This document shows positions 17,386-30,289 of a stretch of 64,000 nucleotides of DNA, in pieces (position 1 is the stretch's first letter; every line of letters begins with the position of its first letter). This stretch comes from Seiridium cupressi (lineage: Eukaryota; Ascomycota; Sordariomycetes; Amphisphaeriales; Sporocadaceae). A program made the translations under genes and the position numbers. Below the pieces are notes generated by a model. That model ran no database searches. It worked only from the letters and a program-made list of their open reading frames with translations, and had not been told where the DNA came from. The stretch lies in assembly GCA_036674765.1 (NCBI GenBank), contig JARVKI010000001.1:434001-498000 (forward strand), given 5' to 3'.

Positions 17386-18237
17386 TCAGCAGCTAATACC
17401 ACCTGCCCTAGTTGGGTAAATGTCTGAGAACTGTAATGAGACCATGCCAGTCGTGTAATCAATGAGCTTCACCGATTGTAAATCGCGGACGACCCAGTCT
17501 GGACCGGCTGCGACGATCTCATCCAAGGTATGACTAGTAACCAAACCCACCACCTTGCAATTCGCAGCCTTCCCAGCCCTTATTCCAGCTGGGCTGTCTT
17601 CAAAAACGACAGTCTTTGCGGGACTCATATTGAGTATCTCGGCGCCCATTCTATAGCAAGACGGATCTGGTTTGCCGTGCTCGACCGATTCTGCGGTGAC
17701 CAAATGTTCTGGATGAGGAAGCTGCAGCGTTTCAAGCCAGCCCCTAGCAAGTCCATTTGATCCTGAGGTGACGATAGCCCAGGGCACGCGAACTGCAATT
17801 ATGGCTTGAAGCAATTCCCTCGCCCCATTGATGGTGACGGCATCCTGGCCATAAAGCTTAGGGATAAGCGCTTCCATCTCGCCAACGTCTGTCATAACGA
17901 TCAGAAGTGAGTTACAACACGCCTCGGTGGGAGAAGGGTAGACCTCACATTTCCAGTTGGCCTTTCCTGGGCAGAACGCCTTCAACGTATCTATGGTTCT
18001 ACGACCATGAGCGGTCTGTAGGATCAATGCTGGATCAACTCCAATTTCAGCTCCAACACTAATCTTGGTCAGTCAAACTACAGATGATGGTGGCGTTTGA
18101 TTGAGGTATCCTTACGTATCCCAGTGTTTGATAACGGCCTTGGTAGAGTCGATAAGGGTACCGTCAAGATCGAAAAGCAATCCACTGCACTGCACACGTT
18201 CTGATGCAATCCGGGTATCCATCGCCTGTGTAGCCAT
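17386..18237 (-). CDS. HAD-superfamily sugar/glycerol phosphatase (Gpp1/DOG-like)
   Basis: Three exons (18116-18237, 17949-18058, 17386-17888) give 244 residues, the usual size for this family. The 60-base second intron is a multiple of three and has no stop, so an unspliced reading would wrongly add 20 residues. HAD motifs are in order: FDLDGTLIDS (nucleophile and acid aspartates), VTSGS, the lysine in GKPDP, and VFEDSPAG. The relatives are yeast Gpp1/Gpp2 glycerol-3-phosphatases and DOG1/2 2-deoxyglucose-6-phosphatases, which remove phosphate from small sugar or polyol phosphates in the cytosol. It lies divergent to the MFS gene and 3.7 kb from the cyclitol-type multi-enzyme. A cyclitol-phosphate phosphatase role is therefore attractive but is inference. 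Confidence 0.9.
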
Positions 18238-19297: not shown

Positions 19298-21065
19298 ATG
19301 CAACAACCTCCTGCTGTTCCCACAGAATCCTCCAATGAAGCCCCACGAATCTTTGAGGCTGTGCCAGGCATCCCTTCGACCTCCAGGTTGCTGATCACGT
19401 CTCTTCTAGTTGGCGCCAATACCATACAGGCAAGTTCGCAGCCGGCCGATGTCTACTAACAGGTGCTGATGCTGTGCCAGTTTGTCTCTAATTTCATCAC
19501 TTTCTCTGGGGGGCTTGTGATCAGTGAAGAGCTTGGAAGACCAGCAGGCCCAGGTCAGGCGAACTGGATGCCCGCGTCATATCCGTGAGTGACAAGCATG
19601 AGAAGAGATCAGTTGTACGGCCTACTAACTGCATTATTCACATAGGCTCACGCAAAGTGCTTTTGTGCTCATCACAGGCCGCCTTGGAGCTGTATACGGA
19701 CACAAACGCCTTGTGCTGCTTGGCTGCTTCCTTTTCGGCGTCTTTTCTCTGTCGAATGCTTTCTGCCGCACATACGAGTCGTTCGTCGCAATTCGCGCAT
19801 TAACTGGAATCGGCGGCGGTTTATTTATGCCGAATGCTGTCTCAATGATTACCATTATGATACCGCCAGGGCGGACGCGTAACCTCTTTTTAGGATTTTT
19901 TGCTGCTTCTCCGCCCCTGGGCGGGATGGTGGGCGCGCTGCTAACAGGCGTGTTTGTTGAATCTATTGGCTGGAAGTGGCTCTTTATCATACTGTGAGTT
20001 CAGAGTAGCCAGAGATACATGAGAAAATCCTCTTATGGTCGACTGATATTCAAAGTTCATTATGCACAATGGCTATACTAGCATGTTTGGCATATGTTGC
20101 ACCCCCAGAGGTTCCCGTTGATGAGGGTGGCCAAATCGATTATTTTGGCGCGGTTTCTGGGCCATGCAGCTTGTTGCTGTTCAATGTCGTATGCAAGTCA
20201 GTCATTCCCTAGATGCTATGAGCCATTTCTAATGGATAGCGACTGAACATAATCCAGCCAAGCGCCGTCCTCGGGTTGGGCGAGCCCTTATATAATCGCA
20301 TGCTTAACCGCGACGGCCATACTATTCTTGTCTTTCATAATCTGGGAGACCAAATACGCTATAGAGCCCATAATGCCGCTTGGTATCTTTAAGACGAACT
20401 CATTTTCAGCACTTATCTGGGTGGTCTTATTTAGTTATATGAGTTTCGGTATCGCCCTTTGGTACTCAGTTTGTTGGCAACAAATACTACGACGTACGTC
20501 TGTCCTTGATACAGGATATCAATTCGTACCCTTCGGACTCGGATCATTACTGGCCGTATTTATTGCAGCAAAGCTAGTATCCTGTATAGCTGCTCAATGG
20601 ATCATGGCTATCGGTGTTGCTGTCGTTTTGTGTGCTAGCCTTCTGCTCGCCACAATGCCAGTTCAGCAAACCTATTGGGCTCAGGTATTTCCGGCGATGA
20701 TTTTCTGTGGATTCTGCCCCGACTTTGTCTATGTGGCTGCTCAAGTAATTGCGAGCAATTGCGTCAGTCGTCGTCATCAAGGAGTTGCCAGCAGTCTAAT
20801 CGGTACCTTAAATCTCTATGGTACCAGTCTGGGTCTAGGGCTTGCAGCCATTATCGAAACGGAGGTTATTAAGAGCCGTACGGACGATGTCATAGGATAC
20901 CGAGCTGCCTTGTACTTTGCAGCCGGCGTAGCTCTTGTTGGTCTTATCCTTGATCTCATTTTTGTAAGGATGCCCAAAGATGACCGTGAAGGCTGGCAAG
21001 AGCCTGCAAGAGCTGGCGTCATCGAGTTGGACTCTGTTCGACAACCTCTCGAAGATATTCGATAG
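19298..21065 (+). CDS. MFS transporter, DHA1/drug:proton antiporter type
   Basis: Five exons (19298-19429, 19481-19584, 19646-19993, 20056-20196, 20258-21065) give 510 residues with about 12 to 14 hydrophobic helices, as usual for fungal MFS exporters in the plasma membrane. Landmarks include GQANWMPASYPLTQSAFVL, the loop-2/3 motif GRLGAVYGHKR (motif A, GxLaDrxGrkr-like), RALTGIGGGLFMPN and PPGRTRN. The first intron begins GC rather than GT (caggcaagt) and is 51 bases with a ctaac branch point; splicing it restores NTIQFVSNFITFSGG. The gene is followed in tandem by the giant multi-enzyme and is divergent from the HAD phosphatase. Export of, or self-protection from, the multi-enzyme's product is the likely job. 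The substrate is not deducible. Confidence 0.93.
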
Positions 21066-21409: not shown

Positions 21410-21650
21410 AAGTTGGAAGNNNNNNNNNNNNNNNNNNNNNNNNNNNNNNNNNNNNNNNNNNNNNNNNNNNNNNNNNNNNNNNNNNNNNNNNNNNNNNNNN
21501 NNNNNNNNNNNNNNNNNNNTAAAGTTGGAAGTAAAGTTGGAAGTAAAGTTGGAAGTAAAGTTGGAAGTAAAGTTGGAAGTAAAGTTGGAAGTAAAGTTGG
21601 AAGTAAAGCTGGAAGTAAAGGTGGAAGTAAAGTTGGAAGTAAAGCTAAAT
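21410..21650 (+). repeat. 12-bp tandem repeat (aaagttggaagt) around an assembly gap
   Basis: The unit aaagttggaagt appears just before the Ns and about nine to ten times after them, with variants (gctgg, ggtgg) toward the right edge. Ns fill 21420-21519, exactly 100, the usual placeholder for a gap of unknown size. The array probably collapsed in assembly. The ORF reading through it (KVGS repeats) is an artefact. Confidence 0.95.
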
Positions 21651-21892: not shown

Positions 21893-24800
21893 ATGATTCC
21901 CACAACTATCATGCTGGACCATCAGACTGAACCTGGCGTTCATAATTGGGAAGATGAGAACGGAAATATTGGTTATCAACTGACCAGTGAACTGTCGGCA
22001 CAGGTTGTCATGGCCCGAGTCCGTGGGGTCTTCGACTTCCATAGCCCTGGCGATGGCGTTAGAGGAGCACTGTCGACATACCTTCGCCGGGATGATAGCG
22101 ACGGCACGCGAAAAATATGCGTCATCATCGACAATAACCTGGCTGAAGCTGTACAGATCCAGGTCCGGGACTACTTGGCATGGTGTAAATCCGAAAGTCT
22201 GTTGGAGGGGTACACTATCACACCTCTAGCAGTAGACTCACCAGGAGAAAAGACCTTGGATCGAGTCTACAGAGTTGTTCAGGCAGCAGAGAATGCCGCT
22301 TTGAGGCGAAGGGACATGTTCGTTGCTGTCGGTGGCAGCTCAGTGACGGACATTGTGGGTTTTGCCGCTGCAATTTACCGCAGGTCCACGCCGTGGATTT
22401 GGATACCCACAGACGCCGCCGGGGCCATGCGATGTTCTCGTCATGACTACTACTTTTCTCTTAATTACAAGAGAGATGATCTAGGATCCATATCTGAAGG
22501 ACTCTTGTCTTTGTATCACCCTCCTATTGCAGCAATCTGGGAGCTGGATATCCTTTCCGATACGTTTGGTGAAAATGGCATTGGATCAGAACGTCAAGTT
22601 CCATTAACGGCTGGCACAGATGATGAGTACTTGGAGCAACATTTCATTTCGGAGATCGTGCAGTACCACGTGGCCTCCGTTTCTGACATCTTCCAACTGA
22701 GCAACAAGACACTCATGCAGAGCTATTGCACTGCGACAGGGTCTGACGCAGTCCGCAGAAAGGTTCTTATTGTCGTTGATAGTGAGCTGGGAACCAGCCT
22801 GCTTGCCGCTATAGATGCTTATTTTTGGAGCCATCATTCTTCGATTGACGAGTTCCGGCTCATGGCGACACATGTCTCCAGCCAAGGCAAAGACATGACC
22901 AGCGTTGAGAGGGTCATAGACGCTGCGATCCAGTTAAAGATGTTATCCAGTGACCTCTTCATCGCTGTTGGAGGTGGGACTCTCATGGATGTGGTTGGAT
23001 TCGCCGCTGCCATGTTCCGAGGTGGCACTCCATACTTAAGAATTCCCACGACCCTGGTTGGTGTTATCGACGCTGGCGTTGGCGTCAAGGTTGGTGTTAA
23101 TTTTGAGTCTCACAAAAACTTCATTGGCAGATATTATGCCCCGATAGCATGTCTCAATGACGCTGGCTCTTTCTTGCCAACACTTCCGCGCCGGGAGTAT
23201 GCTTGTGGCTTGGCTGAGGCAGTCAAGATGGCCATCCTCAAGAGCTCGTGTCTCTTTGATGTCATCGAAGGAAATCAACTCGAGCTTGGGTACAATTCTT
23301 TTACGCATGAAGTGATTGAACTGTCCGTTCGCACCATGCTCGAGGAATTACAACCGAACCTTTACGAAAAAAGCCTCATCCGACTAGTTGATTTTGGGCA
23401 CGAGTTCGGACACATCATCGAGTCGCTTGCTAGCTTTAAAATCCCCCACGGTGAATGTGTTAGCATCGGCATGTCAATCTCTTCATTTCTCGCCTATCTT
23501 AAAGGGTTGCTCGACCCCTTAGAATTAGAGAGAATCCTGGACTGTCTGCTGAGCCTGGGACTTCCTATATACGCTGACGAGGCAAACTGCTGCGATGCGA
23601 ATACTCTGTGGAACAAGATACGAACGGAAGGAATCGAACACAAGGATGGAATGCTGCATCTGGCTGTGCCCAAAACCATTGGCCAAGGCACTTTCATTGA
23701 CCAGATCTCTGCTATTGATGCTGACATGCTTCTCAAGACCATGCTTGCCTTGAGGAAGTATTCGGAAGCGTATTTCGGAGGCAAGCGTGCAGCAAAGCGA
23801 CATCATCCTTTGATCGGAAGCGTCAGCGACGAAGTCTCCAGTGTTGTCGCTACGAACCGGGTGATCGACAAGGCGAGAATAATTGCAGACAAGGAGTCAC
23901 CCTGTACTGATCCAGAATCAATCTCGTCGTCATCATCACCATCACCATCTTTACCCCCGTCATCTGGGAGCATACTCCAGAGTTCACCACTGAGTGGGGC
24001 CAGCAGTCAGACCTCTCTATCAATGGTTGGACATGTTCAAAGTCTAACAGCTACTGTCATTGGCGCATCCGGAGATATCGGTTCCAGCTTCACAGGTTTC
24101 CTTACAGACGAGGTCTCTCGAGTCTATTGTACCGTTCGACAGCACTCGTTGGACAAATTCAAGGACCGTATACGCACTGGGCATCATTCCAAGCTATGTG
24201 TACTTACAGGACACCCGCTGGATTTGGCCAACTTGGAGATCATCACCAGGGAGTCAGACGTGCTTTACAATATGGCAGCCGTGGTGTCGTTGAGCTCCGT
24301 TCCCAACGATCAAGCAAAAGTCATTGCTCTAAACGGGTTCGGCCAAGGAATCATCACTCACTTTATTAAAAGTACTGGTAGAGAACAAAAAATAAAAGTG
24401 GTGTATCCCTCATCACAGCGAGTGCACCTGACACTTGACGATAACGCTGTGGACCTATGGGTTCAAGATGCCGCGCGGGCTTTCCGCGAACAAAGGGATA
24501 ATCTTGTGGCTGAACAAGATGTGTGTGCATCTCTGGACATATTCTCCCAACAATTCGTCAAAGATCACCCCATACCCGCCGGTCACAATGTCTACGAGGT
24601 ATCCAAACGGCTGGGAGAGCATTTCGTGTCACTATTACCGCGTCATGTCTTGATCAGGATATCAGGCGTCTACGGACCCTCGTTCACCAGAGGTTTTATC
24701 TCTCGAGCTGTCCGACCGCACAATAAAAGAAGCCATGAATCGGTAGAGATCAGAGATTTCATATATGCTGAAGATCTGAATAAAATCCTTCTCAAAGCAG

Positions 24801-27800
24801 CGACTGCCCAGCCTCCTGACAGTAACGCCTTCGATGGTGCTTCTGGCGAAAGCACCAATCTCAAGGATGTTTGGCGCATGGCCAGAGAACTAATTGGCGA
24901 CAATGCTGCAGTGGTGTTCAAAGACAGCGCTAGTCCTCCTGAAGCAATAAAACTCGACACTTCTTTTGCCAAAGAACTGCTACAGGGGGACTTTGTGCCA
25001 TTTCGGGCTGGATTGCGCAGAGTCATTGACGAGTCGATTCGTTCCCCCGGACTAGGGAGCATGAGTAGCTTCCAGCACCCTGAGCGTTTTGTACCACATG
25101 CGTTGGCTGGGTACATGGTGTCCGAAGAGACTCTAGTGAACTTTGTGCGCGGTGCAGATGGTTTCCACATTGATGACACATGCAAGTCTCCGCTTACGAC
25201 CGCACTGGCCAAATCCTTGACTTGGTGGTTCAATCAGCTCCAGCCGTCTTCACAACAACTTGTGGTGGATTATATGACCAGAACTGGAGGGATAGCGGTC
25301 CGCCTACGCCTTCTACCCCAAATTGGTCAGTTCAGTGTAGAGAGCAGCGGCCGTGCCGGGTACCGGGCGTACCTAGATGTCAATGCCGGTCTAATTGAGT
25401 ACGTCGCTGATCCAAAGGGCGCCGCCAAGATTGATGACATTGTCGGTCGATGCGGCCACCATCTGCTTGCGTTCATCTCGAGACGGTGCAATCCACTGCA
25501 GTCAGTATGGAAAAGGAACCAAGAGGAAGTCATGGCCAACAAGTGGAGAGATTTCCTCCGCCCCTGGCGCAAACCATACGTCATAGTACTAGACATAGGA
25601 TCGACCTACCTACGAGCAGCTGTACTAGGCCCCCATGGCGATCTCCTCGATGAACCCACACGGGTAGTCAGCCCAAGCAAGCATTCACACCCGCAAGACT
25701 CCTTGGGAGAGCTCCAAGAGAAACTCCTGGATAGAATTACCCATGCAGTCAGATCCTTCAGAGCAACATATAACGACGTATTACTCGAGGAAGTGGCGGT
25801 AGCCTTTGGAGGAGTAATTGACAGTAGCGGGGTTATTCAGGATGCCAGCATATTCTGGGGAGAGCCTGCGCGAGGGTTTGATCTCAAAGCTACTCTGCTT
25901 CAGCGCCTGCACGGCGTACGGGTGACAATTCTGAACGACGTCTCAGCGGCCGCTTGGCGATACAAGGACGAAGGGCGTTTCTGTCTAATCACCGTAAGCT
26001 CTGGGCTTGCAAACAAGGTCTTTGACAGCGATGCGGAGAGCTTGAATAAGCTTATCCTAGACCCTGATGGCCTCGGTGGCGAGATGGGCCATGTGGTCGT
26101 TGAGCCCCGTGCCGTTGATAAGCTTGTTCAATATGCCAAGTCAGAATCCATTGCCAATCCCAAAGATTTCGCGTGCTCGAGACTCAACTCGTATGTTTGT
26201 GGGGATACAAGCAAAATCAGCGCGCGGTTCTTGGGCCTGGCCGCTAAGGAAGGCGACGAGTTCTCGCTACGATTGTTGGAGGAACAGCGTCTCCCACTCT
26301 GCCCTTGCGGCAACATTGCTGACCTATGCTCCTACAGCTCTGGGCGAGCAGCATTACAATACGCCAAAAGGCTGGCAGCTCAGAGCGGCTATGATGTCCA
26401 ACCGATTGATATAACGGACACGTGGTTACAAAAAGCAATCATAGAAAAGCACCCTCTCGCGTATAAAGTGGTAGTCGACTCAACCTACTATGTGGCCCTA
26501 CGCATCCTGCAATTAGCGGCCGACCTGGGCCTGGAGAAATTCATAATCGTGGGCGGCTTTGCCTTGAAAACCGCCCAAGGCGAGTATCTTCGAGCGGTGC
26601 AAGACCATCTGGCACGCCTTTGCAGTTACTCAGCCTTCTTTAGCGGATGGACAGAGGCTAGGATCCGTAGAATAGTAAAGCTCGGCATAGACGATGACGA
26701 CGATGTCCTTCGTGGGTCGGGCTTCTTCGTCCAGCACTCGCGAGCAAACTACCTGGCTGTAGAGAAAATAATAGGGGAGAAGTCACTGAAACTTGTACAT
26801 AGGAAGATCCCACGTTGTGGTAACGGGGAGATATTGGCCAAGGTGCTCTTTTCTGGAGTATGCTCTACCGACCTACAGATTCTGCGCGGCGAGCGCGATT
26901 TGGAGCCGACGGTGCTTGGCCATGAGGGCGTCTGTCAGGTAGTAGAAGTGGGTCGCAAAGTGACGGGCCTGATCGAGGGAGATGTCCTGGTATTACTACC
27001 AAACAACCCCAGGGATGATTCAGAGAAACTAGGTCACAACAGGGAAGGCCTATTCCAGGGATACATCAAGTTCGGTCAGGAGTTTATTGATCGAGGGCAA
27101 GTCTTACCCTTGAGTTCCTTAGCGGTTTCGCCAGCAGCCACCCTTATTGAGCCCTTGAGTTGCGTTGTGGCGGCGCAAGAGCTTCTCGGCAGCCGTGTTA
27201 CTGGAAAGAATGTTCTCGTCATTGGTACTGGAACTTTGGGGCTAATGTTCGCTTCCCTTAACAGGAAAAGGGGAGCCCGTAATGTCTTCCTGGCCAGCCG
27301 TTCAGAAGAAAGCGTCAGACTGGCGGTGGCACGGGGTTTTGACCCGCATCATAAGGCGTTTACCATTGATTGTGACGCCAAATCGCGGGTGGCTGAGGCA
27401 ACAAAGTTGGAGGGTGTTGACGTTGTCATAGTGTGCGTTTCATCAGGTCAAGGAATCCATGTGGCCCAAGATGCTATCAACTATGTCAACGCCGGGGGCT
27501 GTGTGTATCTCTTTGGGGGGTTTTCTGCTGGTGATGTTCTCAAGTTAGATCAGGGGAACGACAAAGAGATATGGTCTATCCGGACGCACTGGAAGACGGA
27601 GCGAGTCCAGCACTCCGGGAGGGAGTTGTACTTGGCAGGTCATCGTGGCAGTCGCCGAGAACATGTTGCCGTCGCTGCCAAGTTGATCCAGGATGATCCG
27701 TCTCTGTCCAATTTAATCTCCCATGTGATATCACTTCACATGGTTCCAGACGTCGTGAAAGGTCTTGCTTGTGATGGAAAAGTCAATGGCGCACCAACAA

Positions 27801-29380
27801 AGCGGGTGGTCATAGACATGAACTCCTGGGGCACCTTCACCCGACCGGCTGAAGATCTTGCGCTGCGTCATCTCAAGGAAGCTACGATGAAGCACAAGGA
27901 CCTGATATCTTTGGGCAACTTGTACCGCAAAAGCGGTTTCGATGGCAGCCATTCACGCCTAGGTTGGGTATTCCCACCTTCATGGTCCGAGATCGAGGCC
28001 GTTATCAAGAACGTAACTCAGTTGCGTGCCTTCCGTGCCAAACGTCACTTCATCTGGGTCGGCACAGGAGCGTGGACTTTCTGCGTGGAGATGCTGAAAG
28101 TACTCTCCCCAACCAACAACACTGGTATTTCCCACACGATTCAGAGTCTCGACCCCCGAGCCCTTGGGGACGTGTTTTCGCAGATAGTAGATCTGAGAGA
28201 AGTTGTTTGTCTTGGTATGAGCCAGTCAGGGAAGACGCTAGAAACGCGTGCCATCATGAGCGCATTGCGCGAGCGATTTGACTCGTTGGGGCTCGACTAC
28301 CGGGAGCATTTCATCTGGCTGACCGACCGACGAAAGTCTGTCCATGACGTTGATTGTGGGGAAGAGGCCATCCGATCCGATAAGCTACAAGACTGGTCTG
28401 ACGTTGATGTGGCTCCCCTGACGATTCAGGACAAATCTGAGACCAACGCTCTGTTCTGCACTCCGTTCTCGGTTCCGGTCTTCGTTTCTCTGGCTTTGCA
28501 GCTGGGCCGAGATGATGAGCGCTTGCGCCAACTATACCAGCAGTACATTTCTCTGAAGGATGGAGTTCTGTCTGAGATAACATCGAAGGCATCTATGATA
28601 TCATTCACAAATCCTAGTGAGATCAGAATTATATTACCCCAGACTATTGCTGAAGCAATGGAGAGGCTGATTGTGCAGCTCTTAATGCAAGGCTGGGGCT
28701 CGAAGCAAGCCGGTTTCAACCCACGAGTCCATGTCGCCTCCACAAGCCCAGATCCTTCGGATTCTGGGACGCTGAAGCTTGATGTGCCTCTGCACTGTTC
28801 GCCAGCAGTTGCAGCCATGGTGGTCATGAATGCGCTCAATTTCTTGTGTGCCATGGTAGGTTATCATCGAGGCCTCAACTTCGTCACGCATCCCGGGGTA
28901 AATCTGTATAAGCGTCGAGCGCTTGAGTTGATGAAAACAAAGCAAGTGCAGCAAAGATTGGAAGCACTCCCTTGCTTCGACACCATTGGTGCCCAGGTTC
29001 TTGCGGCCTTGGATGCCAACCCCAAAGTACAATTTGTGGACATTTTGTATTATGGACACGTTTCTGCATCCTGCCTCCGAAGGCTCAGGAATGACCTTAC
29101 CTCGCTTCTACGCTGGCACCCTCGGCATTTGTCGATCGGCGCCATTCCGGGTGAACAATGGAATCACTCCGAGTATCAGGCCGCCGTAGGAGCCACGAGC
29201 ACCCTATATATCATCATTATACCGGACCCACCGCATCTTCCTGAAGGGTTCTCGAAGGAGACATTGGATCACAATATTCAATGCCTACGGGCGATTGCTC
29301 TGGCGACATACGATACTCTTCCTGGCAAGGCAATATGTTTACGGGTGACAGCAGGCTTCTGGGACCTTGTAAGCACCTAA
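21893..29380 (+). CDS. Giant multi-enzyme: sugar-phosphate cyclase (x1.5) / SDR epimerase / ROK kinase / MDR dehydrogenase / SIS isomerase
   Basis: One uninterrupted ORF of 2,495 residues. Approximate modules: 25-225, the N-terminal half of a sugar-phosphate cyclase without zinc ligands; 289-632, a complete cyclase with E442 (GLAEAVKMA), H503 and H507 (DFGHEFGH) and H519 (HGEC). H503, H507 and H519 have the 4- and 16-residue spacing of dehydroquinate-synthase ligands, and the text is closer to EEVS/DDGS (DAGVGVKVGVNF, SHKN). 677-710, Ser/Pro linker; 719-1050, extended SDR (GASGDIG, YEVSK at 901-905); 1055-1225, unrecognised; 1229-1616, ROK kinase (DIGST, ND at 1349, GEMGH, CPCG); 1623-1980, medium-chain dehydrogenase (C1657, GHE 1676-1678, GTGTLG); 1990-2495, phosphoglucose-isomerase-like SIS module (MSQSGKTLET near 2110). 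Sedoheptulose 7-phosphate would be the expected substrate of an EEVS-type cyclase. A C7-cyclitol product is inference. Confidence 0.9.
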   Translation: MIPTTIMLDHQTEPGVHNWEDENGNIGYQLTSELSAQVVMARVRGVFDFHSPGDGVRGALSTYLRRDDSDGTRKICVIIDNNLAEAVQIQVRDYLAWCKSESLLEGYTITPLAVDSPGEKTLDRVYRVVQAAENAALRRRDMFVAVGGSSVTDIVGFAAAIYRRSTPWIWIPTDAAGAMRCSRHDYYFSLNYKRDDLGSISEGLLSLYHPPIAAIWELDILSDTFGENGIGSERQVPLTAGTDDEYLEQHFISEIVQYHVASVSDIFQLSNKTLMQSYCTATGSDAVRRKVLIVVDSELGTSLLAAIDAYFWSHHSSIDEFRLMATHVSSQGKDMTSVERVIDAAIQLKMLSSDLFIAVGGGTLMDVVGFAAAMFRGGTPYLRIPTTLVGVIDAGVGVKVGVNFESHKNFIGRYYAPIACLNDAGSFLPTLPRREYACGLAEAVKMAILKSSCLFDVIEGNQLELGYNSFTHEVIELSVRTMLEELQPNLYEKSLIRLVDFGHEFGHIIESLASFKIPHGECVSIGMSISSFLAYLKGLLDPLELERILDCLLSLGLPIYADEANCCDANTLWNKIRTEGIEHKDGMLHLAVPKTIGQGTFIDQISAIDADMLLKTMLALRKYSEAYFGGKRAAKRHHPLIGSVSDEVSSVVATNRVIDKARIIADKESPCTDPESISSSSSPSPSLPPSSGSILQSSPLSGASSQTSLSMVGHVQSLTATVIGASGDIGSSFTGFLTDEVSRVYCTVRQHSLDKFKDRIRTGHHSKLCVLTGHPLDLANLEIITRESDVLYNMAAVVSLSSVPNDQAKVIALNGFGQGIITHFIKSTGREQKIKVVYPSSQRVHLTLDDNAVDLWVQDAARAFREQRDNLVAEQDVCASLDIFSQQFVKDHPIPAGHNVYEVSKRLGEHFVSLLPRHVLIRISGVYGPSFTRGFISRAVRPHNKRSHESVEIRDFIYAEDLNKILLKAATAQPPDSNAFDGASGESTNLKDVWRMARELIGDNAAVVFKDSASPPEAIKLDTSFAKELLQGDFVPFRAGLRRVIDESIRSPGLGSMSSFQHPERFVPHALAGYMVSEETLVNFVRGADGFHIDDTCKSPLTTALAKSLTWWFNQLQPSSQQLVVDYMTRTGGIAVRLRLLPQIGQFSVESSGRAGYRAYLDVNAGLIEYVADPKGAAKIDDIVGRCGHHLLAFISRRCNPLQSVWKRNQEEVMANKWRDFLRPWRKPYVIVLDIGSTYLRAAVLGPHGDLLDEPTRVVSPSKHSHPQDSLGELQEKLLDRITHAVRSFRATYNDVLLEEVAVAFGGVIDSSGVIQDASIFWGEPARGFDLKATLLQRLHGVRVTILNDVSAAAWRYKDEGRFCLITVSSGLANKVFDSDAESLNKLILDPDGLGGEMGHVVVEPRAVDKLVQYAKSESIANPKDFACSRLNSYVCGDTSKISARFLGLAAKEGDEFSLRLLEEQRLPLCPCGNIADLCSYSSGRAALQYAKRLAAQSGYDVQPIDITDTWLQKAIIEKHPLAYKVVVDSTYYVALRILQLAADLGLEKFIIVGGFALKTAQGEYLRAVQDHLARLCSYSAFFSGWTEARIRRIVKLGIDDDDDVLRGSGFFVQHSRANYLAVEKIIGEKSLKLVHRKIPRCGNGEILAKVLFSGVCSTDLQILRGERDLEPTVLGHEGVCQVVEVGRKVTGLIEGDVLVLLPNNPRDDSEKLGHNREGLFQGYIKFGQEFIDRGQVLPLSSLAVSPAATLIEPLSCVVAAQELLGSRVTGKNVLVIGTGTLGLMFASLNRKRGARNVFLASRSEESVRLAVARGFDPHHKAFTIDCDAKSRVAEATKLEGVDVVIVCVSSGQGIHVAQDAINYVNAGGCVYLFGGFSAGDVLKLDQGNDKEIWSIRTHWKTERVQHSGRELYLAGHRGSRREHVAVAAKLIQDDPSLSNLISHVISLHMVPDVVKGLACDGKVNGAPTKRVVIDMNSWGTFTRPAEDLALRHLKEATMKHKDLISLGNLYRKSGFDGSHSRLGWVFPPSWSEIEAVIKNVTQLRAFRAKRHFIWVGTGAWTFCVEMLKVLSPTNNTGISHTIQSLDPRALGDVFSQIVDLREVVCLGMSQSGKTLETRAIMSALRERFDSLGLDYREHFIWLTDRRKSVHDVDCGEEAIRSDKLQDWSDVDVAPLTIQDKSETNALFCTPFSVPVFVSLALQLGRDDERLRQLYQQYISLKDGVLSEITSKASMISFTNPSEIRIILPQTIAEAMERLIVQLLMQGWGSKQAGFNPRVHVASTSPDPSDSGTLKLDVPLHCSPAVAAMVVMNALNFLCAMVGYHRGLNFVTHPGVNLYKRRALELMKTKQVQQRLEALPCFDTIGAQVLAALDANPKVQFVDILYYGHVSASCLRRLRNDLTSLLRWHPRHLSIGAIPGEQWNHSEYQAAVGATSTLYIIIIPDPPHLPEGFSKETLDHNIQCLRAIALATYDTLPGKAICLRVTAGFWDLVST

Positions 29381-30289
29381 CTCATGGATCGGTATTGCAT
29401 CATAGATTAGGATTTCTAGTATTTGCATCCTGGATCAATTTTCAGAACGCGAAAGTAATAGAATTTCATATATGTAAAAGCGTCACTTATTTTTCTCGGC
29501 TCATTGCATGTTGGTAGAACGACGGTTTATCTTGGCGAAGCACGCATCACAACACTGATGTAGATAAAAGTCAGCGCAACTCCGCCCGCCCTGGGTGTGT
29601 TGGGTAGCTCTGAAGCACTAGTGTTATTTCTTTTGGTAGCTCTATAGGGTCATGTCGGACTCTTCTTTAAGCTCTTTATCTTTCTACAACGCCTTAATTG
29701 AGATAACAGTATCAAAGAAGCACTCACAAGTACCTTATGGCCAAGTAAATATATGATGACAAGTCGTAAGCAGCGATCCTACCATGATGACTGACGCAAT
29801 ACCATAATAGATTGGCTGTTTTTCTGTTATGTTGACGAGATTGTGATCTTTGTTTCATTGAAAGGCCGCGTAAGCTTATGCGATTTAAGAAGGAGGTTCC
29901 ACTCATGTGCGCATTCGTGCAGATTTTCTCTCAGACTACTGCAGATGTTTCTGCATAAATTGCTTCAATGATTACTGCAAAAAATGTGCGATCGCTTAGA
30001 GAGCGTCGTTTCATGCATATGAGCAGGTTCTTATCCAACATCTGCTCTTTGGTTGACAAACCAAGACTATGTCTAGCAGCCTTATAGAGCATACCCTTGG
30101 CTCAACTTTTCAACTTGTGGAATATCAGGGTCTGGCACTGCTTTCCATAACCATCTCGCGTTTGCAGCTACTTATACATGCGATCTATCTACCATTCAAA
30201 ATATACAAGTACAATTTTGAACGGATTCAGACAAACCTACTTTCTGACCTGGACAAAGCCTACAATTGCCCACAACAATAACCTCAGAA
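29381..30289. other. Intergenic, nothing recognised
   Basis: AT-rich flank between the multi-enzyme and the F-box gene. Only short unsupported ORFs. Confidence 0.45.

Follow-up and report, generated by a model that had tools for sequence, protein, structure and literature searches.

The bacterial C7-cyclitol pathways that lead to acarbose and validamycin draw on a sedoheptulose 7-phosphate (S7P)-type cyclase, a ROK kinase (AcbM or ValC), dehydrogenases and a HAD sugar phosphatase (PMC9200736), the same enzyme types as those reported here. ROK kinases act on C7-cyclitol precursors in both pathways, with AcbM phosphorylating 2-epi-5-epi-valiolone (PMC9200736). Published work on nearby topics covers fungal DDGS and mycosporines (PMC10057719), algal EEVS neighbourhoods (PMC7826186), leaf-nodule streptol (PMC8599487) and acarbose (PMC9200736). 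No description of the fusion discussed below was found in the open-access literature searched.

In this paper, we analyse a large ORF from the ascomycete Seiridium cupressi (genome size 45 Mb), located in a 64-kb stretch of DNA that is referred to in its entirety as the window. We consider it likely that the gene encodes a multifunctional polypeptide for the biosynthesis of a C7-cyclitol (pseudo-sugar), with sedoheptulose 7-phosphate as the starting compound. This reading draws on the set of modules present and on ValA being the nearest relative of the cyclase in both sequence and structure. That the module set fits C7-cyclitol chemistry had been proposed in an earlier note made from the DNA sequence, and our analysis bears this out.

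Architecture of the polypeptide

The ORF (21893-29380, + strand) is uninterrupted and encodes 2,495 residues, all modules lying on the same strand. Module calls were made using Pfam, NCBIfam, matches to solved structures and two structure models compared with VIA-align 2. At the N-terminus (residues 1-245, 21893..22627) lies half a cyclase, the remnant of a module designated SPC-A, which was recognised by a phmmer/BLAST self-match of 30%. This is followed by the sugar-phosphate cyclase module SPC-B (residues 246-632, 22628..23788), which belongs to the clade marked by the motif DFGHEFGHxxE, and by a Ser/Pro low-complexity linker defined from the sequence (residues 633-716, 23789..24040) that BLAST detects only in P0001 (the window's own protein) and P0002. 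An extended SDR module (residues 717-1075, 24041..25117; Pfam PF01370) with GASGDIG, Ser840, Tyr901 and Lys905 precedes a stretch of unknown function, X1 (residues 1076-1228, 25118..25576), that has no Pfam match at E<=1 and that BLAST fails to find in many relatives. The rest of the chain comprises a ROK sugar-kinase module (residues 1229-1618, 25577..26746; Pfam PF00480) with catalytic Asp1349 and the zinc motif CxCGN..C, a Zn-dependent MDR module (residues 1619-1960, 26747..27772; Pfam PF08240/PF00107) and a module with the phosphoglucose isomerase (PGI) fold (residues 1961-2495, 27773..29377) that carries SQSGKTLET, Gln2266 at the motif Glu, Lys2340 and WNHS. The five modules listed in the earlier note (SPC, extended SDR, ROK, Zn-MDR and PGI fold) are all confirmed within this one ORF by Pfam, NCBIfam and solved structures; the half-cyclase at residues 1-245 had been overlooked.

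A database entry for Seiridium cupressi, P0002 (2,489 residues), is separated from the window protein by 12 substitutions. The gene is split in a few records: Podospora didyma and Xylaria acuta each have the cyclase in one piece and ROK-MDR-PGI in another, on contigs of equal length, as might be expected if several genes had been taken for one through an annotation or assembly error, but the 7.5-kb frame described here contains no stop and tens of records, including those from named genomes, possess the same fusion. We regard such an error as extremely improbable: an assembly artefact is ruled out by the recurrence of the fusion among relatives, and the misassembly that the earlier note had reckoned with can be set aside. 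On the sequence evidence, the fusion is due neither to chance nor to misassembly.

Distribution among fungi

The fusion is not confined to S. cupressi: many filamentous ascomycetes carry it. A search with the whole protein, its matches drawn evenly along the length of the query, yielded 52 proteins, and architecture classes were assigned to 52 sequences, from P0001 (the window's own) to P0052, with P0053 excluded. All modules are present in 28 of these and a further 13 lack only a near-complete SDR. The largest class (22/52) has full SPC-A, SPC-B, SDR, ROK, MDR and PGI; in 12/52, full SPC-A occurs without a near-complete SDR (P0018, one of these, has part of an SDR by BLAST). The window's type, in which half of SPC-A is combined with all other modules, accounts for 6/52, and half SPC-A without SDR for 1/52. 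The other 11 lack one or more parts, several of them being short records. By BLAST, the SDR is absent from 13 of the 52. The sequences are mostly 35-65% identical per module.

Complete or near-complete fusions are found in the Sordariomycetes (Seiridium), Leotiomycetes (Cadophora) and Geoglossomycetes (Geoglossum), with partial records from the Lecanoromycetes (Gomphillus) and Orbiliomycetes (Arthrobotrys). Pestalotiopsis, Fusarium, Microdochium, Diaporthe, Cladorrhinum, Apiospora, Monosporascus, Chlorociboria and Stictis are also represented among the matches.

Two variants deserve mention. In the lichen fungus Gomphillus americanus, a 653 aa protein (P0061) has a cyclase joined directly to the start of an SDR, without SPC-A, and may be a shorter form of the fusion or an incomplete gene model. 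The host genome itself contains another cyclase of the SPC-B clade (locus L002, genome G000, contig C37, ~297412-297735) that looks fragmentary: 250 cyclase residues that are 88% identical to Seiridium cardinale P0023 (residues 479-728) are followed by the last 52 residues of that protein (2431-2482), with everything between residues 728 and 2431 missing. The 231-aa S. cupressi record P0072 may represent the same place.

The SPC-B cyclase

To place SPC-B, a tree of 76 cyclase sequences was used in which the references were DHQS (including that of the genome's own AROM), ValA-type EEVS and DDGS. Nineteen fungal SPC-B sequences and 12 of bacterial type form a single clade (99/94), the non-fungal members of which are two Actinomycetota records and metagenomic sequences. 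Its sister is a clade of 28 sequences that holds ValA and the Ava DDGS (97/86), whilst five DHQS sequences, own-genome AROM included, stand apart (100/99). A position outside the shikimate DHQS/AROM clade, on which the earlier note had staked its reading, is what the tree gives, and an AROM paralogue is ruled out by tree position together with the active-site residues. The kinship with EEVS and DDGS that had been proposed stands as far as ValA being the best match is concerned; membership of the ValA/Ava DDGS clade does not, SPC-B forming a separate sister clade.

The three Zn ligands, NAD motif and fold of a Zn/NAD sugar-phosphate cyclase are all found in SPC-B. The ligands E442, H503 and H519, as read in the earlier note, are intact, the Zn ligands are complete in 19/19 fungal sequences, and K445 and K408 are retained. 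M482 and D500 are EEVS-like and present in all 19 fungal sequences, DHQS having K and N at these places (4/4). Two further positions do not follow the EEVS pattern: His507, present in 19/19 fungal sequences, is DHQS-like, whereas Pro, as in the EEVS motif GHxFSPxxE, is found there in 22 of 25 EEVS-side sequences, and E504, which adjoins Zn ligand H503, is peculiar to the SPC-B clade where EEVS has Thr/Ser. The SPC-B active site is a mixed one. The DDGS signature of Ala500 plus Pro507, as seen in one reference sequence, is absent, SPC-B having Asp and His. Sequence and structure model together show SPC-B to be a Zn/NAD sugar-phosphate cyclase whose ligands are intact and whose clade differs from those of the DHQS, ValA-type EEVS and DDGS sequences included here. 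We know of no characterised enzyme in this clade. Two metagenomic cyclases, P0075 and P0078, are intermediate between the clades: the tree places them on the EEVS side, yet they have His at the H507 position.

The best solved match of the cyclase, both in sequence and in the fold of the structure model, is the EEVS ValA. With ValA so close, and D500 and M482 as in EEVS, SPC-B could differ from a true EEVS (or EVS) in its sequence only, so that the metabolite would be of a known class (valienol, streptol, gabosine or cyclophellitol-like) and only the packaging would be new. That cyclophellitol was originally discovered in a fungus counts in the same direction. The separate clade, together with H507 in place of Pro and E504 in place of Thr/Ser, speaks against this, and we see it as a real possibility towards which we do not lean. 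It is rather unlikely that SPC-B uses another substrate, such as a different heptulose or a hexose phosphate, to give something other than a valiolone-type C7 cyclitol (an inositol-like ring, for example). The mixed active site, with E504 beside Zn ligand H503 and the DHQS-like H507, would suit such a change, as would the resemblance of the MDR module to, among others, scyllo-inosose 3-dehydrogenase, but in the solved-structure search the S7P cyclases ValA and Ava DDGS come closest, with DOIS far weaker (E 6e-22 versus 2e-62). We continue to favour a cyclase of S7P that forms a clade of its own.

Database annotation gives a different impression. The best NCBIfam cyclase models are the DHQS models PRK06203 and aroB, and the window protein falls below the cut-offs for both, scoring 237 bits with aroB against a cut-off of 305. 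P0013, whose two cyclase copies add up, scores 317 and so would be labelled DHQS by an automatic pipeline. Several matched records bear the name 3-dehydroquinate synthase.

The SPC-A half-cyclase

In the window protein, SPC-A consists of only the first half of a sugar-phosphate cyclase, without the zinc site; residues 1-245 are modelled mostly with high pLDDT. In most relatives SPC-A is of full length and precedes SPC-B, again without zinc histidines. Across 12 aligned SPC-A sequences, the first of these (the H503 position) is Asp in seven and His in none, and the second (the H519 position) is Asp in 11 and His in one, with the Zn Glu retained in 11. Owing to this loss of zinc histidines, SPC-A is most likely inactive. 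The half-cyclase is perhaps a scaffold or dimer partner, which is a guess.

Some bacterial-type cyclases of the SPC-B clade also seem to have an N-terminal half, on weak matches (P0063, 22 bits; P0071, P0077 and L039, 13-14 bits). In a tree of cyclase halves, one side of a split (99/93) holds both the bacterial and the fungal A-halves, albeit in a tree with long branches, two sequences flagged as unsure, nine of odd composition and the single DHQS sequence among those of EEVS. This suggests, as no more than an indication, that the arrangement of half-cyclase plus cyclase is older than the fungi.

The SDR, ROK, MDR and PGI modules

Both the Gly-rich motif and the YxxxK of an extended SDR are found in the SDR module, and among fungal-type sequences S840 and K905 are each present in 37/37 and Y901 in 36/37. 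The ROK module has the catalytic Asp, EMGH and Cys zinc motif of a ROK kinase; D1349, E1397, H1400, C1470, C1472 and C1479 are found in all 55 fungal-type and all three bacterial-type sequences. The catalytic Zn ligands of the MDR module (C1657, H1677, E1678 and E1753) are present in 51/51. The four-Cys structural zinc lobe typical of the MDR family is not evident in this module, whose top NCBIfam match is L-threonine dehydrogenase (6e-22), followed by scyllo-inosose 3-dehydrogenase IolM, a cyclitol enzyme (1e-17). By alignment, the SDR, ROK-kinase and Zn-MDR modules have their active-site residues in place.

The structure model of the PGI module has the PGI fold, the VIA comparison reaching model residue ~412 and barely covering the last 120 residues. 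In the SxSGxT of this module, Ser is present in 44/46 and Thr in 46/46 fungal-type sequences, as is Lys2340 (46/46). Position 2266, equated with the PGI catalytic Glu by motif likeness only (MESNGK in the genome's own PGI, LESLGSK in P0053), is Gln in 46/46 fungal-type sequences, whereas the two bacterial-type sequences with a PGI module both keep Glu. This replacement makes classical isomerase activity doubtful for the fungal-type module.

Taken together with the loss of SPC-A zinc histidines (the first in 12/12 sequences, the second in 11/12), the missing SDR in some lineages and the apparently fragmentary second copy in the same genome, the invariant Gln2266 might be read as a sign that the fusion is decaying or partly regulatory, with only some modules functional. 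The catalytic residues of SPC-B, ROK and MDR are, however, conserved almost totally among sequences mostly 35-65% identical per module, and invariance of Gln2266 in 46/46 itself implies constraint rather than decay. We think decay improbable, and prefer a working cyclitol polypeptide.

Bacterial-type relatives

The enzymes of bacterial C7-cyclitol pathways had been described in the earlier note as the products of separate genes. This is true of the acarbose and validamycin systems but is an incomplete picture, for bacterial-type proteins already fuse SDR-ROK-MDR (P0057) or ROK-MDR-PGI (P0054 and P0053, the latter from 'Candidatus Omnitrophota bacterium') in the order seen in fungi. These proteins are colinear with the window protein, with ROK and MDR 36-46%, SDR 40% and PGI 28-30% identical; unlike the fungal fusion, they have no cyclase in the chain. 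From their sequences, we infer that P0054, P0057 and P0062 are bacterial.

P0062 is an SPC-B-clade cyclase placed beside all of the fungal sequences (98/80). It and P0057 each lie on a 5,870-base contig from the same source, and the shared length suggests that they are two genes of one contig, which would fit a single operon. The C-terminal domain of P0062 (370-565, behind the cyclase) matches the N-terminal domain of P0053 (1-198, before ROK-MDR-PGI) at 29% identity (E 3e-14); this common domain has no Pfam match. By eye, P0053 also has a hydrophobic, membrane-like insert at ~255-315, near the start of ROK, and a C-terminal HEAGH stretch (~1585-1691) resembling a membrane peptidase.

Among 34 bacterial loci with relatives of the query (genome_contigs), the cyclase gene adjoins a ROK kinase gene, or lies ~3 kb from it in L007, in seven (six without a near-duplicate record). 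Cyclase-kinase pairing in bacteria, as read from these sequences, is recurrent. Of the paired loci, L005 alone falls in the HEFGH clade, the rest being on the EEVS side; on weak matches, it also has an N-terminal half-cyclase. Family-4 glycosidase-like genes occur at two EEVS-side loci, after the ROK gene (L010:10948-12213) and after the cyclase gene (L007:15157-16425).

Other searches found little. A first genome_contigs scan with P0053 returned four stretches that fit a pattern and no relatives, and a viral_contigs scan with A1 no relative. P0057 had no match at E<=1e-50 in 297 genomes from the phylum of G006, a search run without a positive control. P0071 matched one of 396 genomes in the phylum of G001 (G001 itself) at E<=1e-60, and P0097 two of 394 in the class of G001 (G001 and G539) at E<=1e-55.

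Since the bacterial-type proteins share both the modules and their order, and some of the modules are already fused in them, the likeliest origin of the fungal polypeptide is a bacterial operon of that gene order whose genes became fused.

Neighbouring genes

Two genes upstream of the ORF suit a pathway via a phosphorylated cyclitol to an exported product. The first (17386..18237, - strand; start and one intron placed by eye) is HAD phosphatase-like (Pfam HAD_2), its closest PDB entry being yeast glycerol-3-phosphatase 2qlt (E 3e-31), with the NCBIfam sugar phosphatase model PRK11587 below cut-off. The second (19298..21065, + strand; start and introns by eye) encodes a DHA2/EmrB-like MFS transporter (Pfam MFS_1 on two exons; NCBIfam TIGR00711, below cut-off). 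They are candidates for the pathway phosphatase and exporter, respectively, but both gene families are common and the proximity, seen in one genome, could be chance. Between the MFS gene and the large ORF, at 21420-21640, the 12-bp unit TAAAGTTGGAAG is repeated in tandem (11 overlapping 60-nt copies), together with a run of ~100 N. Further neighbours (GH92, RING finger, VIT/VWA, FMN oxidoreductase, WD40/PFU and PhyH) have no evident link to the ORF. Others, including the next downstream gene, at 30266, have no Pfam match, and Rfam has no match within the 64-kb window at gathering scores.

A possible pathway

In the pathway we envisage, SPC-B would close sedoheptulose 7-phosphate to a valiolone-type cyclitol through the oxidise/eliminate/reduce/aldol cycle of DHQS-type enzymes, and the ROK module, by analogy with AcbM, would re-phosphorylate the product. 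MDR and SDR could then act on the phosphorylated ring, changing its oxidation state or stereochemistry or dehydrating it. The PGI-like module may bind the phosphorylated cyclitol, with an enediol-type keto shift or epimerisation possible now or in the past. Finally, the neighbouring HAD phosphatase would remove the phosphate and the MFS protein export the product. The modules may act in a different sequence from that in which they stand in the chain.

A bolder version can be put forward tentatively, as something we would not yet back: that ascomycetes have fused a bacterial operon for a full pathway from S7P to a novel pseudo-sugar phosphate, comprising a new cyclase class (Asp/Glu/His), a structural pseudo-cyclase and a PGI fold repurposed for carbocyclic substrates through the Glu-to-Gln change.

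If the cyclitol reading is correct, a hidden family of fungal pseudo-sugars extends across many ascomycetes, possibly including glycosidase or trehalase inhibitors or streptol-like plant-active cyclitols. The SPC-B clade adds an uncharacterised branch to the sugar-phosphate cyclases for which the database name 3-dehydroquinate synthase would mislead, and the fusion offers a case in which the probable conversion of a bacterial operon into a fungal polypeptide can be traced.

Comparison with known systems

Set against the bacterial C7-cyclitol pathways, with their separate genes, the fungal fusion is one polypeptide with its cyclase in a sister clade. To our knowledge, neither the PGI-fold module nor the pseudo-cyclase has a counterpart in the acarbose or validamycin pathways. 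At the active site, EEVS ValA (4p53) and DDGS Ava_3858 (5tpr) have Pro where SPC-B has H507, Ser/Thr where it has E504, and 'NG[LM]AE' in place of 'CGLAE'. The PGI module is only 10-18% identical to the phosphoglucose isomerases of Thermus (1zzg) and Thermotoga (2q8n), with the motif Glu changed to Gln in fungal-type sequences.

Among fungal proteins, the obvious parallel is the pentafunctional AROM, likewise a multi-enzyme polypeptide, the first module of which is a cyclase from the same superfamily. The AROM cyclase of the same genome belongs to a different clade from SPC-B, and the remaining AROM modules differ from those of this fusion. If the reading proposed here is right, AROM is not the only kind of multi-enzyme polypeptide in fungi with a sugar-phosphate cyclase at its start; the fusion would be a second, directed to another metabolite.
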